From: an uncultured Campylobacterales bacterium
GTDB taxonomy: Bacteria; Campylobacterota; Campylobacteria; Campylobacterales; Sulfurimonadaceae
DNA: 47,666 nucleotides
Assembly: GCA_903892995.1 (NCBI GenBank)
Contig: CAITKP010000018.1
Location: forward strand, 1 to 47,666
Direction of reading: 5' to 3'
The position numbers were made by a program, and so were the translations under genes. Shown here piece after piece: positions 6,541 to 12,804 of the stretch (its first letter is position 1; each line of letters starts with the position of its first letter). The notes beneath the pieces were generated by a model. It ran no database searches. It was not told the origin of the DNA and saw nothing but the letters and a program-made list of their open reading frames with translations.

Positions 6541-6978
6541 CTATTTTTTTTCTATATTATTTTCCAAACGAGTAATATGTCCATGATCATCATGATACAC
6601 TGTTATTAATTGACTGTTGACACACTCTTGTAACTGAGTATTTTCTACACCAAAATAGTTTGCATACTCGCTAGCATCATATAAGAGATGTTCAGTTGAT
6701 GATTTATGTCTATTGAGTCTTGAAAGAATAAACAATACCAACGGAGTAGCAATAAGCATAAATATAGCATGATGAAAAGGAATAACGCTAATATTATCTA
6801 AGATAACATCTGCCATTTCACCAGGAGCAGCTTTAAGAGTGAGTATATGATAAAAAACTACAATAAGTGGCTTCCATAAATAGATCCAACCAATCCACAA
6901 TAAAACAGTTGCTATATCCCACATCAATCTTTTTGCACGTGGAAGTTCATGACGCTTATTTATAATTAAAGATTCCAT
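6541..6978 (-). CDS. pgaD: Poly-N-acetylglucosamine synthesis protein PgaD
   Basis: The product has 145 residues with two membrane segments (about 22-48 and 68-88) and a charged C-terminal tail. This size and topology, together with the position 3 nt after pgaC, are those of PgaD, the partner of the PgaC synthase. In E. coli, cyclic di-GMP binds PgaC and PgaD together and activates polymer synthesis; whether that holds here is an inference. PgaD sequences diverge strongly, so context carries much of the call. Confidence 0.82.
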   Translation of the reverse strand: MESLIINKRHELPRAKRLMWDIATVLLWIGWIYLWKPLIVVFYHILTLKAAPGEMADVILDNISVIPFHHAIFMLIATPLVLFILSRLNRHKSSTEHLLYDASEYANYFGVENTQLQECVNSQLITVYHDDHGHITRLENNIEKK

Positions 6979-6981
6979 TAT

Positions 6982-8280
6982 TTAGACCTTTGATTTTTTT
7001 ATCTGTTGATGAGCACCACGATCTGGACTCACCCATCTAGCTCTTTTTTTCTTTGCAAATATTACTTTTGGAAGCGCTGTGACAGCAGTAAAAAGATTCA
7101 AAAACCAAAAAGCAAATGGATACCATATCATCCAAAAATAGTTTTGTCCCATCCCTTTGTCATAATGCCCATCAAGCCATTTACTCACATAAAACTGTAT
7201 CAAACAAGCACCAATCAAAATCACACTACTTTCATTAGGCAATATAGGAGAATCCGGAAGCATTAAGTATGGAAAATCCAAAAATTTATCTAAAAACCAA
7301 ACAAGAAAAACAATAATCATACTATATGCCCAAATCATACTAAGTACTAATTCCGTCATTAATCCCCAAAGGTGAGTTTGCTTTGGTAAAAAAAGAACTT
7401 TGAAATTTTTAAGCATTACCTGTGCACCACCCATAGCCCAACGTAAACGCTGTTTCCATAAGCCTTTTAATGTTTCAGGCATCAATATCCATACTAAAGC
7501 ACGAGGTTCAAAACGTACATCCCATCCTTCGCGTTGTAGCTTCCATGTAATATCTATATCCTCTGTGAGCATATCTGGGCTCCAATACCCTACTTCATGG
7601 ACAGCTGATTTTCTAAATCCTGTAACAACTCCAGAAACAGTAAATAATCTTCCAAAACTTCGCTGAGCCCTTTTAATCATACCAACAATAGAGGAGAACT
7701 CACCAACTTGAATTTTACCAAGAAGGCTTGTACGATTACGGATTCTTGGGTTTCCAGTCACTGCTGCAACTTGTGGATAACGAATAAAATGTTTCGCCAT
7801 CCAATGCAGACAATATGGATCTATAAGCGCATCTCCATCGATACCAACTAAATACTCATATTTTGCAACCAATGCACCAGCTTGAAGACCGATCGCTTTT
7901 CCTTGATTTTCAGCAAGATTAACAACTTTTAATTTTGGATTATTTGTTGCCAAAGCCAATAAAATCTCTAAAGTATTATCCTTACTTCCATCATTAACTG
8001 CAATAACTTCAAACTCAGGATAGGCAACATTGAGCGCGTAAGTAATCGTTTCAACAGCATTCTCTCCCTCATTGTAACAAGGGATAATAATACTTACACC
8101 TGGCCAACTTTCGTTTTCATGTAAAGTCGGAATAGTTTCATGAAGATAAGGTTTTTCATTTTTAAAATAAAAGAAGATCGCGCCTATCATCCAAAGAGTT
8201 GACATAAATAGAGGATAAAAAAAGATATAACTGAGCATTATTTGCCATATTACATGTGACCATACTTGAAAATCCATCAT
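6982..8280 (-). CDS. pgaC: Poly-beta-1,6-N-acetyl-D-glucosamine synthase PgaC
   Basis: The product has 432 residues. One N-terminal membrane segment is followed by a family 2 glycosyltransferase domain and two to four C-terminal membrane segments. Active-site motifs are NDGSKDN (about 96-102), DGD (148-150), TEDID and QRLRW, the D,D,D,QxxRW pattern of processive beta-glycan synthases. It would polymerise UDP-GlcNAc at the inner membrane and extrude the chain. Two adjacent ATG codons could start it; SD-like AGG precedes them. It sits 9 nt after pgaB and 3 nt before pgaD, forming one operon. Confidence 0.93.
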   Translation of the reverse strand: MMDFQVWSHVIWQIMLSYIFFYPLFMSTLWMIGAIFFYFKNEKPYLHETIPTLHENESWPGVSIIIPCYNEGENAVETITYALNVAYPEFEVIAVNDGSKDNTLEILLALATNNPKLKVVNLAENQGKAIGLQAGALVAKYEYLVGIDGDALIDPYCLHWMAKHFIRYPQVAAVTGNPRIRNRTSLLGKIQVGEFSSIVGMIKRAQRSFGRLFTVSGVVTGFRKSAVHEVGYWSPDMLTEDIDITWKLQREGWDVRFEPRALVWILMPETLKGLWKQRLRWAMGGAQVMLKNFKVLFLPKQTHLWGLMTELVLSMIWAYSMIIVFLVWFLDKFLDFPYLMLPDSPILPNESSVILIGACLIQFYVSKWLDGHYDKGMGQNYFWMIWYPFAFWFLNLFTAVTALPKVIFAKKKRARWVSPDRGAHQQIKKSKV

Positions 8281-8289
8281 AAGCCTTTC

Positions 8290-10341
8290 CTATTTTTTTG
8301 CTGTTGTGTTATTTGTTTTTAGTTGATGCATAAGAAGACTTTTTTGTGAAAAATCTTTTCTCATCATCGCTGCATCTGGATTATTTTTAAATTGATTATC
8401 AGGATAATATGCGATATGATGTACACCTAAACCATAAAGATAAGATATCGTACCACTAAGTTCAAAAGGAGATATCGGTGTATCACCTTTTCTCCAGTTA
8501 ACCGTTTGAAGCTCCATAACTGTACGCTCTAAGCCACATTTTTCCTCTTTTACATTGTTAACAATATCATCATAAAACTCTTTGCTATCTGCTGCTTGTT
8601 CCATATATGGCATTGCCATAATCGCAGTATAATCATAATGTTTTATCGATTCTCCAAGATTTTGAGCATACCATTCTTCAGCATTTTCATTCAATGCAAC
8701 TTGGGCATAAAGATTGCGTGCTGTAAGAAGTCCTGGTTTTTCCTCTCTTACAATTTGTGCTAACTCCATCGCAAATCCATCTAAATATGCTGTTTTTTTC
8801 TTTGTCCATTTTTGAAACTGATCATGGTCACCTCTTATCTTTGCTACGCTTGGATAAAGCCCCCACTCTTTGTATTGTTCGCGCGCTGTTGTGCTGTCAT
8901 CTTCAAAATCAGAGAGAGTTACATCATCATGAAAAATGATTCCATCGATATAAGCTGCTTTTCCTAGATCTTCATAAATCTCTTTGATCACTTTTTTTGC
9001 TTTTTTAGAAAATGGTGAGAGTCTTGGATAGCCCATATTCAAGTGGGTTGGATCTACTTGAAGGGTGACAACCATATCTTGTGAAGCTGGATTATTCGCT
9101 GGCAATTGCCATGCAATCACAGGCATCCAAGCATAGATACGCTTCACATTTGTTCGAGTTCCTATTTGCCAAGCGACACGATTAAAAAGGTCAGCTCGCA
9201 TCGGAACATTTCTATTTGGAAAATATACATAATCCGCTGCACCATTTGCATCTGGATCAGCAAATGCTTGCAAATATACAGTATTAACGCCTAAACTTTT
9301 TATGCGTTCTAAAAGATCACCAAGATTTTTTTCTGTTTGAGCTGGATCTGGATCATAAATATAATCAAGATCAATATGAGCAGCTTTTGTTACATGATCA
9401 TCATCAATAAAGTTCTCATTTCTAGACCACATATTTACTTCAAGATCTTTAAGTGTCATCACACCATCAACCAAAATACGGCGTAAACCCCATACTGGTG
9501 TCAAACGTGTATTACTTCCATCATCAAGTGTAAGTCCAACTGGCATACCGAGCTCTTCTGCTATCTCACGGACTACTTTATTATAATGCCCGTATGGCCA
9601 AACCATCACTCGAGGTTTCTGTCCTGTATATTTTTTTAGAAAACTATTATTCTCAGCCAAATCATCTTTAATCCGTTTTTTATAGCTTTTTTCATCTTCA
9701 TAACCATTATTTATGTATTGACGTGTTGTAACTGCTGGCTCCATATTGCCTTGAGGATTCCCTTGGATGCCATGGTGTAAACCATAACTATGACTTCCTA
9801 TCTCTACTAGACCGCTAGCGACCATCTCTTTGATCTCTGCTTGACTTAAGAATTTATTTCTATCAATAATCTGACCACTAAAATCAACTTTATCTTTTGA
9901 GTTTAACCAACTTCCAACTAAAGCAATAACTGTTGGAATCTTATATTTTTTAAGTACTGGATAAGCATTTGCATATACAGATTGGTACCCATCATCAAAT
10001 GTTAGAAGAACAGCTTTATCTGGTAATGGAGTTTTGTTTTTACGATAGTTTAAAATATCGTCAACTTTAATAAAATGGTAGCCATTATCCAAAAGCCATT
10101 TTACCTGCTCATCAAAATGCTTTGGAGTTACAGTGTATGTAGCATCTAAAGTTTCACTTTTATCAGCTATTTCGTGATAACTCAGTACTGTAAACTCATT
10201 GGGATTTTGATCTCTGCTGCACATATTTGGATGCCCTTGCGCCATGCTCAAAGTGCCAAAAAAGCTAAAAGATAGCAACAAAACTTTAGAGGTTTTTTTA
10301 AATACTTCACACTTACTTTTAATCATCATGAATAGAGTCAT
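8290..10341 (-). CDS. pgaB: Poly-N-acetylglucosamine deacetylase/hydrolase PgaB
   Basis: The product has 683 residues. A hydrophobic segment at about 18-35 should act as a signal peptide; the first Cys (41) is not in a clear lipobox, so I cannot call it a lipoprotein. Residues 50-300 form a polysaccharide deacetylase domain with TFDDG (114-118), a metal-binding SHS..LHH stretch near 180 and VWPYGHYN. The second half is the glycoside-hydrolase-like C-terminal domain of PgaB, with the GIIFHDD motif. PgaB partly deacetylates PNAG in the periplasm so that the chain can be exported. It is first in the visible operon. The outer-membrane porin PgaA, which normally precedes it, is absent: the next upstream gene is an unrelated protease. 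Confidence 0.92.
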   Translation of the reverse strand: MTLFMMIKSKCEVFKKTSKVLLLSFSFFGTLSMAQGHPNMCSRDQNPNEFTVLSYHEIADKSETLDATYTVTPKHFDEQVKWLLDNGYHFIKVDDILNYRKNKTPLPDKAVLLTFDDGYQSVYANAYPVLKKYKIPTVIALVGSWLNSKDKVDFSGQIIDRNKFLSQAEIKEMVASGLVEIGSHSYGLHHGIQGNPQGNMEPAVTTRQYINNGYEDEKSYKKRIKDDLAENNSFLKKYTGQKPRVMVWPYGHYNKVVREIAEELGMPVGLTLDDGSNTRLTPVWGLRRILVDGVMTLKDLEVNMWSRNENFIDDDHVTKAAHIDLDYIYDPDPAQTEKNLGDLLERIKSLGVNTVYLQAFADPDANGAADYVYFPNRNVPMRADLFNRVAWQIGTRTNVKRIYAWMPVIAWQLPANNPASQDMVVTLQVDPTHLNMGYPRLSPFSKKAKKVIKEIYEDLGKAAYIDGIIFHDDVTLSDFEDDSTTAREQYKEWGLYPSVAKIRGDHDQFQKWTKKKTAYLDGFAMELAQIVREEKPGLLTARNLYAQVALNENAEEWYAQNLGESIKHYDYTAIMAMPYMEQAADSKEFYDDIVNNVKEEKCGLERTVMELQTVNWRKGDTPISPFELSGTISYLYGLGVHHIAYYPDNQFKNNPDAAMMRKDFSQKSLLMHQLKTNNTTAKK

Positions 10342-10419: not shown

Positions 10420-12804
10420 TTATTTTTCTTCAAGAGCTTTTGTAATGATCTCTTTGAGTTCCTCTCCATCAACTACCTCTTTAGCAATGAGCTCTTTTGC
10501 AACTGCTTCAATAGCTGGCCACACCTTTTTCACCTCTTGCTCAGTTTTTTCTTTCGCCCTTTTCATCCAAACAACAAGTCGCGCTTCGATCTCTTTGGAA
10601 AAAATTTTTTTATCATAAACAGATTCAATCCCTGTTACATTGATATATCCAAGTTCCTCATCCATTCCAAAAAGTGCAATCGCTGCATATGCTTGCATAT
10701 TTGCCACTTCAAGATCGTTGATTGCTCCTGTTTCTAAGCCATCATCACCAAACTTTTCTATAGTTACAATACGTCCTGCGAGTAAAACACATATATCATT
10801 AAAAAGTTCCTCTTTTGATGTTGCATCTATATAGTCATCACTGTGGTAGGAAACAAAACCCAATGCTTCGCTTCTTGGAGCAACTGTAACTTGTTCTATT
10901 TTGATCTTTGGCAAAAGCATATATGAAAGTACCGCATGCCCTGCTTCATGATAGGCAGTTTTTGCCATTGAAGTTTCAATATCACGAATCTGTTTATTTT
11001 CAAGTTTTGTACCATATTTGATTATATTTATCTGCTCTAATAGTATCTCTTCTGTAAGTTCTTCAAGCCCTTTTCTTGCACATTGTAAAGATGCTTCTTC
11101 TCCAATACGTTTGAGTTCATTGCCGCCAAGACCTGAGATATAGCGTACCACTCTTTCTACATCTATTTTGCCATTATGAGGTTTTTTCAATACTTCATTT
11201 AGAAAAAATCTTCGTGCTTCTATATCAAGTTTTGGAACTTCGATGCGGATATCGATCCGCCCTGCTTTGTTGAGTTCATCTGGAATATCTGCAATATCTG
11301 TTAGTGTGATTATGGTAAAAACAGGAACTTCAAAACTCTGATTGAGATTATCCAACTCCTCTATAAGTGGCGAAATATTCATCTTTGAGATCATTCCACC
11401 TACAACACCTTGAACATCAATATCCTCTAAAATAACGATTGCAGGTGCAGAAACATACGCTTGTGCATAAGCTTTTCGTATCACTGATTCATTAAAAAGG
11501 TCAGCTCCATTAATGGTAATGTATGGCATATCACTCTCGCAAGCAAAAGCACGAGAGAGAAGTTTTTTCCCCATTCCCTGCTGCCCATACAAAAACATCC
11601 CCTTTGGAGGCAACATTCCAAAATGCTCTAATCTATGAGGTTCTTTTAAAAGCGCCAAAATCTCTAAAAGCTCATCTTTCACCCTTTGCTGCCCAGCAAC
11701 ATCTGCAAACCTTATATCTGAGACATGTAACTCTTCATTACTTAAGATAGAGAGTTTTTCTTTACTATAATAGGCGTTTTCTATCTTACATGTAAGGCTA
11801 TTTCCCTCTGCAACTATCTGCCAATCAAGCGTGATTCTATAGTGTTGTTTGAGTGTTTTTTTTGTAAAAAAAGCCTGCTCTTTTAATATTTCATCAGTAA
11901 AATCAATAGCTGTTTGTGAGAGATCAAAATGGATATGATTCATATCTGTATTGAGTTTCATCGCATCATAAATCACACTAAATAAAAGCTCTGGAAGCTT
12001 TTTAATAATATGTCTTGCATTAAGATATGGTGCTAAAGAGAGGGTTAAAAGTGATATCAATTTGTCAAAATTTTTGTATTCTATTTCTATTTTGCTTTGT
12101 TTATTGAAGTTTGTTGAGGTTTCATTGAGCGTTCTTATTGCTATTTTAATCAGTGTAGCCAAACTCAAGCGGTTAAATGGAATTACAGTGTGTTCGTTCA
12201 TTAAAGAAAGCAGTTTTTTATCAAAAGCCTCCTCTTTGACACCATTTAAGATCAACATCTCTCGGCTGAGTCTCTCCATCAAAAAGGTGTGCGCCTGCAT
12301 AGGATCAATTTTCAAAAGTTCATGCAGATCTTGGCGCTGTAAAAGTGATGCAACTCGCGTTGTAGTTAAAACAACAATAATATTTGAAAAATCGATCTCA
12401 CTCTTTTGTGTATCTCCAAAAAGTGTATATATAGAGAGTTGTGCTTGTAAATCAGCTTTTTCTATATCTTCAAAAACTAAAATCGAGTTTGGATTTTGTT
12501 CTACAAATGCAATAACCTCTGTCTCAATTATCGGCGCGTTATACTGCTCCATAGCCATTGAAAAATTTCCACTGTACTTATCCATATTGAAAGTTTTAAT
12601 CTGCTCCAAATGAGTATCAGCTTGAAGAAGCAATTCACAAAGATAGTGTTTCCCACTATTTGGAGGGCCAATAAATGTAAAAAGTGCTCGAACTTTTCTA
12701 CTTGTTTTGAGTAAACTAGCTTGTAAAAGAGTTTTTGCTATCGTCTCTACTGCTTCTTGTTGATCAAAAATATTTTCATTTAAAATTTTCGCTATATTTG
12801 TCAT
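10420..12804 (-). CDS. Double AAA+ protein with FtsH-type M41 zinc protease domain, no membrane anchor
   Basis: The product has 794 residues. I chose ATG at 12802-12804 because GGAG precedes it by 6 nt; a TTG four codons earlier would include that ribosome site. The N-terminal third is an AAA+ module of Clp-like type with Walker A GPPNSGKH (about 46-53) and Walker B ILVFEDIEKAD. A second AAA module resembles FtsH (FADVAGQQRVKDEL, Walker A GQQGMGKK, Walker B VILEDID, KAGRIDIR in place of RPGRFDR). An M41 peptidase follows with zinc site HEAGH (near 618) and the third ligand in NDLE. Bona fide FtsH has two N-terminal membrane helices and one AAA domain; here no membrane segment is evident. It is probably a soluble or peripheral protease with unknown substrates. 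A palindrome copy (11785-11796) encodes Leu-Thr-Cys-Lys between the two AAA modules. Confidence 0.82.
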   Translation of the reverse strand: MTNIAKILNENIFDQQEAVETIAKTLLQASLLKTSRKVRALFTFIGPPNSGKHYLCELLLQADTHLEQIKTFNMDKYSGNFSMAMEQYNAPIIETEVIAFVEQNPNSILVFEDIEKADLQAQLSIYTLFGDTQKSEIDFSNIIVVLTTTRVASLLQRQDLHELLKIDPMQAHTFLMERLSREMLILNGVKEEAFDKKLLSLMNEHTVIPFNRLSLATLIKIAIRTLNETSTNFNKQSKIEIEYKNFDKLISLLTLSLAPYLNARHIIKKLPELLFSVIYDAMKLNTDMNHIHFDLSQTAIDFTDEILKEQAFFTKKTLKQHYRITLDWQIVAEGNSLTCKIENAYYSKEKLSILSNEELHVSDIRFADVAGQQRVKDELLEILALLKEPHRLEHFGMLPPKGMFLYGQQGMGKKLLSRAFACESDMPYITINGADLFNESVIRKAYAQAYVSAPAIVILEDIDVQGVVGGMISKMNISPLIEELDNLNQSFEVPVFTIITLTDIADIPDELNKAGRIDIRIEVPKLDIEARRFFLNEVLKKPHNGKIDVERVVRYISGLGGNELKRIGEEASLQCARKGLEELTEEILLEQINIIKYGTKLENKQIRDIETSMAKTAYHEAGHAVLSYMLLPKIKIEQVTVAPRSEALGFVSYHSDDYIDATSKEELFNDICVLLAGRIVTIEKFGDDGLETGAINDLEVANMQAYAAIALFGMDEELGYINVTGIESVYDKKIFSKEIEARLVVWMKRAKEKTEQEVKKVWPAIEAVAKELIAKEVVDGEELKEIITKALEEK

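Follow-up and report, generated by a model that had tools for sequence, protein, structure and literature searches.

The window examined here is a stretch of 47,666 nucleotides which, from its relatives and gene content, is core chromosome of a Sulfurimonadaceae bacterium. Positions 10420–12804 of the minus strand, on which all features of the gene given below also lie, hold one open reading frame of 794 amino acids plus stop, starting with an ATG at 12804 that has a ggag 5' of it; the extent of the gene is supported by its orthologues. The protein begins directly with a Clp/Hsp100-type AAA module, termed D1 (residues 1–300; 11905–12804), and no Clp-N-like domain precedes it. A linker follows (residues 301–362; 11719–11904), placed by the selection analysis and the structural model and with the lowest conservation of all segments, then an FtsH-type AAA module, D2 (residues 363–600; 11005–11718), and an M41 metallopeptidase domain (residues 601–794; 10423–11004).

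An earlier note, made from the sequence alone, had proposed such a fusion of a Clp-type AAA module to an FtsH-type AAA and M41 protease, and Pfam, phmmer and the AlphaFold model agree on it. Two AAA modules, rather than a single one, were found by domain search: Pfam AAA_2 (PF07724) matches residues 42–161 (E 4.6e-7; 30.5 bits against a cut-off of 27) and Pfam AAA matches residues 403–524, over its cut-off (E 1.6e-18), while Peptidase_M41 (PF01434) covers residues 614–786 (E 3.4e-28; 99 bits against 29.9), the M41 domain also being matched within the organism's own genome. When residues 1–307 were used as the sole phmmer query, only Hsp100/Clp-type chains (ClpB, ClpC and Hsp101) were returned, through their second AAA domain (NBD2), and the structure match of an intact relative points the same way for D1; residues 363–787 match FtsH across AAA and M41 at 1e-54. 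The AlphaFold monomer model (mean pLDDT 84.5) recovers both AAA modules and M41, and its comparison with known structures predicts two AAA tiers and a C-terminal half that resembles FtsH, the relative placement of the domains being uncertain in a monomer model with a pTM of 0.53. Orthologues at 59–81% identity occur in several genera with an omega of about 0.04 (synonymous sites near saturation), which excludes chance.

The protein was also suggested to lack a membrane segment and not to be the housekeeping FtsH, and both points hold. No membrane helix was found in it, its best 19-residue hydropathy being 1.42, where the FtsH of the same genome reaches 2.52 and 2.16, and a canonical ftsH is present on another contig of the same genome (G000:C99). 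Against the FtsH_fam equivalog TIGR01241 the protein scores 212 bits, where the cut-off is 600, and none of the NCBIfam equivalogs reaches its cut-off with it. Other matches in the genome, read by size and score, are ClpB, ClpA, two ClpX-like proteins, HslU and Lon, and no ATP-competent double-AAA paralogue was found among its proteins, for which reason a heteromer with such a paralogue was set aside.

ATPase motifs, pore loops and the zinc site

The sequence marks of an M41 peptidase are present. The HEAGH zinc and catalytic motif is intact at residues 619–623 (10936–10950), as the earlier note had it, and alignment to FtsH and to the family motifs places D697 at the third zinc ligand position (GAINDLE; 10714–10716). 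In the motif alignment, D1 has a Walker A of GPPNSGKH (12646–12669), with His in place of Thr/Ser, and a Walker B of ILVFED (FEDIEK; 12466–12483), with ED in place of DE. D2 likewise reads GQQGMGKK at Walker A (11563–11586), with Lys in place of Thr/Ser, and IVILED at Walker B (LEDID; 11422–11439), again with ED for DE. The sensor-1 Asn is missing from both modules, the corresponding regions being LTTT in D1 and TLTD in D2. Neither the G-aromatic-x-G pore motif in D1 nor an aromatic-x-G in the D2 pore loop was found when looked for; this second loop has 17 residues, compared to 23, including FVG, in FtsH. What is retained are the Walker A Lys and glycines of the P-loop and an arginine in the Arg-finger region (GR, residues 515–516; 11257–11262) that is common to nearly the whole family. 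All 13 members of the window's branch, from several Campylobacterota genera, conform to the pattern GK[HR]/ED/GKK/E[DN]/HEAGH/D, the D2 Walker B being EN in one of them and ED in the rest.

These non-canonical Walker motifs had been missed by the earlier note, whose description of a ‘two-engine’ protease does not survive, since Walker A Thr/Ser, Walker B DE, sensor-1 Asn and a recognisable pore loop are missing from both modules. Because of the same absences, we consider that the protein is probably a soluble, ATP-hydrolysis-independent M41 zinc peptidase resting on two pseudo-AAA+ rings, D1 of Clp-NBD2 type and D2 of FtsH type. Its ancestor would have been an ATP-driven protease of Clp-N/Clp-D2/FtsH-AAA/M41 architecture in which D1 decayed first and D2 later. 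The protein presumably assembles as a ring, as its relatives do, in which the AAA tiers would no longer unfold and thread substrate through ATP hydrolysis and would serve instead as scaffold and gate. As the P-loop Lys is kept, nucleotide binding may persist, and with the glycines also retained the rings could hold nucleotide as a fixed ligand. With no need for ATP hydrolysis, the M41 chamber would then cleave peptides, or proteins that are unstructured or brought by an adaptor. Two general points count against this reading, namely that non-canonical Walker sites may occasionally hydrolyse ATP, and that FtsH-type proteases normally depend on ATP for protein degradation.

A further proposal, tentative and on balance somewhat doubtful, is that each of the two rings is a nucleotide-locked pseudo-ATPase, with Lys (GKK) or His/Arg standing in for the Mg-coordinating Thr/Ser, so that a threading machine would have become a self-gated, nucleotide-sensing soluble M41 chamber in this lineage and a protease-dead unfoldase in its sister lineage.

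The missing motor could alternatively be supplied in trans, the protein acting as the protease subunit of a mixed ring driven by another AAA protein. The same genome encodes a third FtsH-like protein (L003; G000:C102, 552 aa) with membrane segments, canonical ATPase motifs and a dead zinc motif, YQAAK, a membrane pseudo-protease alongside canonical FtsH with which the window protein may associate. Mixed rings of FtsH and FtsHi are known from plastids, and L003, with its canonical ATPase and dead zinc motif, or canonical FtsH itself, would be the candidate drivers. Both of these candidates, however, carry membrane segments, their identity to the window protein is just about 26–30% and the D2 pore-loop length differs, and genomes without a window-type gene commonly give two matches, FtsH and one further. 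A mixed ring is thus quite unlikely, and a peptidase working on its own pseudo-AAA rings remains the preferred reading.

The double-AAA M41 family and the probable order of loss

The window protein is a member of a wider, apparently uncatalogued family of Clp-N/Clp-D2/FtsH-AAA/M41 proteins, for which no full-length model was found in Pfam or NCBIfam. Relatives were gathered through a scan of the collection and a search of the phylum, and 97 members were classified by motif state. They occur in Campylobacterota, Desulfobacterota, Clostridia and Gammaproteobacteria, the latter including Neptuniibacter, Amphritea, Marinobacterium, Alteromonas, Rheinheimera and Thiomicrorhabdus. The phylum search covered 397 Campylobacterota genomes, 39 of which gave a match at E up to 1e-100, and roughly 30 of the 151 genomes in the host's taxonomic family hold any family member; one Sulfurimonas single-cell genome holds both a group B and a group D member (L042 and L075).

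D1, D2 and M41 are all canonical in 23 of the 97 members, found in Gammaproteobacteria and some Campylobacterota, and it is in these relatives, judging by their motifs, that real two-engine machines would lie. The model of an intact Neptuniibacter member (pLDDT 85.4) matches ClpB NBD2 with a Z of about 26 and FtsH with a Z of 33.5. This member carries 110 extra residues at its start, and with one ClpC model the alignment runs from residue 1, which makes a Clp-N-like domain at the N-terminus likely, on a weak test. Pore loop 1 of D2 is some 6 residues shorter than that of FtsH in all but three of the 97 members, from which it would follow that even the intact members must treat their substrate unlike FtsH and that translocation, where it occurs in the family, would depend on D1. 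The D1 pore motif, G-aromatic-x-G, is found in one of the 26 members in which D1 and D2 are both non-canonical.

On the tree, the family lies apart from the canonical FtsH outgroup (branch support 100/99). The window's clade of 33 rows (100/100) comprises Desulfobacterota, the C/C2 and E groups, an intermediate group and the window's branch. D1 is non-canonical in every row of this clade that has one, which would place its decay in the common ancestor of the clade or earlier, unless it was lost on several occasions. Seven rows retain a canonical D2, and the non-canonical D1 and canonical D2 of L155, L156, L160, L164, L038 and L041 fit an order in which D1 decayed first and D2 afterwards. In group E, the D1 module has gone altogether (448 aa; 639 aa in L170) and D2 is also non-canonical. 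Over the whole tree the FtsH-type D2 ATPase changed at least three times, with HExxH retained each time; such counts give no direction by themselves, and the changes are read as losses on account of the FtsH outgroup and the intact members in several lineages. A single loss of the protease is seen, in group D (31 members in one clade), where the zinc His residues have been replaced (YEAGR, REAAH), the D1 Walker-B Glu has become Ala or Ser, and the D2 ATPase is kept. None of the 97 members has lost both the D2 ATPase and the protease.

Group D, the sister of the window's lineage, shows an AAA protein that occurs naturally with its M41 domain dead, which lends something to the idea that the window protein is a non-proteolytic scaffold or chaperone whose zinc site is structural. 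Set against this, outside group D every member examined whose ATPase is degenerate still has HExxH and the Asp ligand, and we regard a purely structural zinc as very unlikely.

Omega values are rough with synonymous sites near saturation, so that only their ranking is used; in the window's branch this runs from M41 (0.030) through D2 (0.033–0.041) and D1 (0.05–0.085) to the linker (0.107), with purifying selection on every domain and the strongest on the D2-lid and M41. In group D the ranking is reversed, M41 being at 0.086 compared to 0.044–0.051 for the AAA cores. That the gene is simply decaying and heading for loss, a reading suggested by the lost hydrolysis motifs and by the sporadic distribution within the taxonomic family, is hard to reconcile with values of 0.03–0.085 in the domains and about 0.11 even in the linker, with an invariant zinc site or with the full-length reading frames found in many genera; it was already disfavoured and is most improbable.

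The strong purifying selection on the AAA domains could alternatively mean that the ATPase sites are unusual yet working, the Lys, His or Arg after the P-loop Lys and the shifted acid pair, ED, forming an altered, perhaps Mg-poor, site in what would still be a motor-driven protease. The retention of GKK in D2 of all 13 branch members speaks for this, as does the change of DE to ED, which is found repeatedly, across both modules and in several lineages, and which could reflect altered chemistry rather than simple decay. Both modules, however, have also lost the sensor-1 Asn and any recognisable pore loop, and close kin in group E do without the D1 module entirely, which leaves a working motor unlikely and favours the ATP-hydrolysis-independent peptidase.

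The motor and the protease of AAA+ proteases are regarded as obligately coupled. We infer that the window protein works as an M41 peptidase without its motor, and the sister branch, group D, would be its mirror image, with a working motor and a dead protease. The family thereby constitutes a natural uncoupling experiment, in which the protease is kept with the D2 motor lost (at least three times) or the motor is kept with the protease lost, and the intact two-motor members surviving in other bacteria provide matched sets of proteins for comparison. It allows us to ask what an AAA ring gives besides force and whether M41 works without ATP hydrolysis, and it bears on how Clp and FtsH engines stack in one chain.

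Known systems and chromosomal setting

The closest known proteins are FtsH and the AAA-M41 membrane proteases (m-AAA and i-AAA), which share the order of AAA then M41, the HEAGH motif and Asp, and the fold, at about 25–30% identity. Unlike them, the window protein has no membrane anchor, carries an extra Clp-type AAA module, and is without the Walker Thr/Ser, DE or FVG pore loop. Its D1 aligns to the second AAA domain of the Hsp100 proteins ClpB, ClpC and ClpA, but with degenerate motifs (GKH, ED, no G-aromatic-x-G) and fused to M41, whereas Hsp100 proteins work with ClpP or as disaggregases. The plastid FtsHi pseudo-proteases and the Ycf2-FtsHi motor, represented among the structure matches of the model by 8xku and 8xqw, are likewise FtsH relatives missing one of two activities; there the protease was lost and the motors were kept, the opposite of the window protein, making group D the nearer analogue. 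Kaur et al. 2020 (PMC7159879) described an FtsH component of the MoxR-vWA ternary conflict systems with two FtsH-type AAA domains, the first inactive and the second active, linked to MoxR and vWA partner genes. The window protein resembles it in having two AAA domains with the first inactive, and differs in the Clp type of D1 and in the lack of recognised MoxR or vWA partners nearby, its neighbours being read by eye.

The anti-phage system IetAS, which pairs the ATPase IetA with an adjacent IetS protease, was considered and set aside, as IetA is the best match for a 64-residue stretch of D2 only and no protease-like reading frame was recognised by eye in the directly adjoining genes. A defence system was similarly rejected, PADLOC yielding generic AAA matches only. 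By the features compared, the window protein is not FtsH proper, FtsHi, MoxR-vWA FtsH or IetAS. In the open-access literature, a search for tandem-AAA M41 proteins, Clp-FtsH fusions and inactive-ATPase FtsH found only the FtsHi/Ycf2 and MoxR-vWA FtsH systems, and no description of this protein or family.

Carriage on a mobile element was discarded, as none of the plasmid records matches the window protein over 80% of its length, the matches listed being ordinary FtsH, and an intact relative gave no plasmid match at 1e-60. No conserved neighbour of the gene was found within the window's clade, which leaves its chromosomal surroundings without a pointer to the substrate; by eye, its neighbours in the window are housekeeping genes or genes of exopolysaccharide type. 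Directly downstream and in the same direction (6541–10341, minus strand) lies what appears by eye to be a poly-N-acetylglucosamine synthesis-like operon, with a PgaB-like deacetylase, a PgaC-like glycosyltransferase and a PgaD-like protein, shared with the sister genome G058 and absent from the other relatives examined. A P-type ATPase-like gene lies near L034 and L055, a few loci only.

Elsewhere in the family, intact or near-intact double-AAA M41 genes adjoin one or two YbjN-like small proteins (L044:7650-12887, L080:4938-10433, L042:7077-10409), and those in Gammaproteobacteria additionally a membrane protein gene. At L061 (Campylobacter concisus) and L162, an intact member is flanked by large proteins that look by eye TIR-like and DUF4062-like, a setting that resembles a defence island. 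Group D genes (L063:7875-10496, L022, L070 and others) adjoin ClpS-like, trigger-factor-like, hemerythrin and truncated-globin-like genes, with PP2C-kinase genes alongside in some loci, a neighbourhood reminiscent of an island of chaperones or unfoldases. One group D member (L102:7869-10491) is split between two overlapping frames, a frameshift or assembly error. In Rheinheimera, a second, divergent family member of 1352 aa (L080:10494-14549) is the immediate neighbour of the first and runs on the opposite strand.
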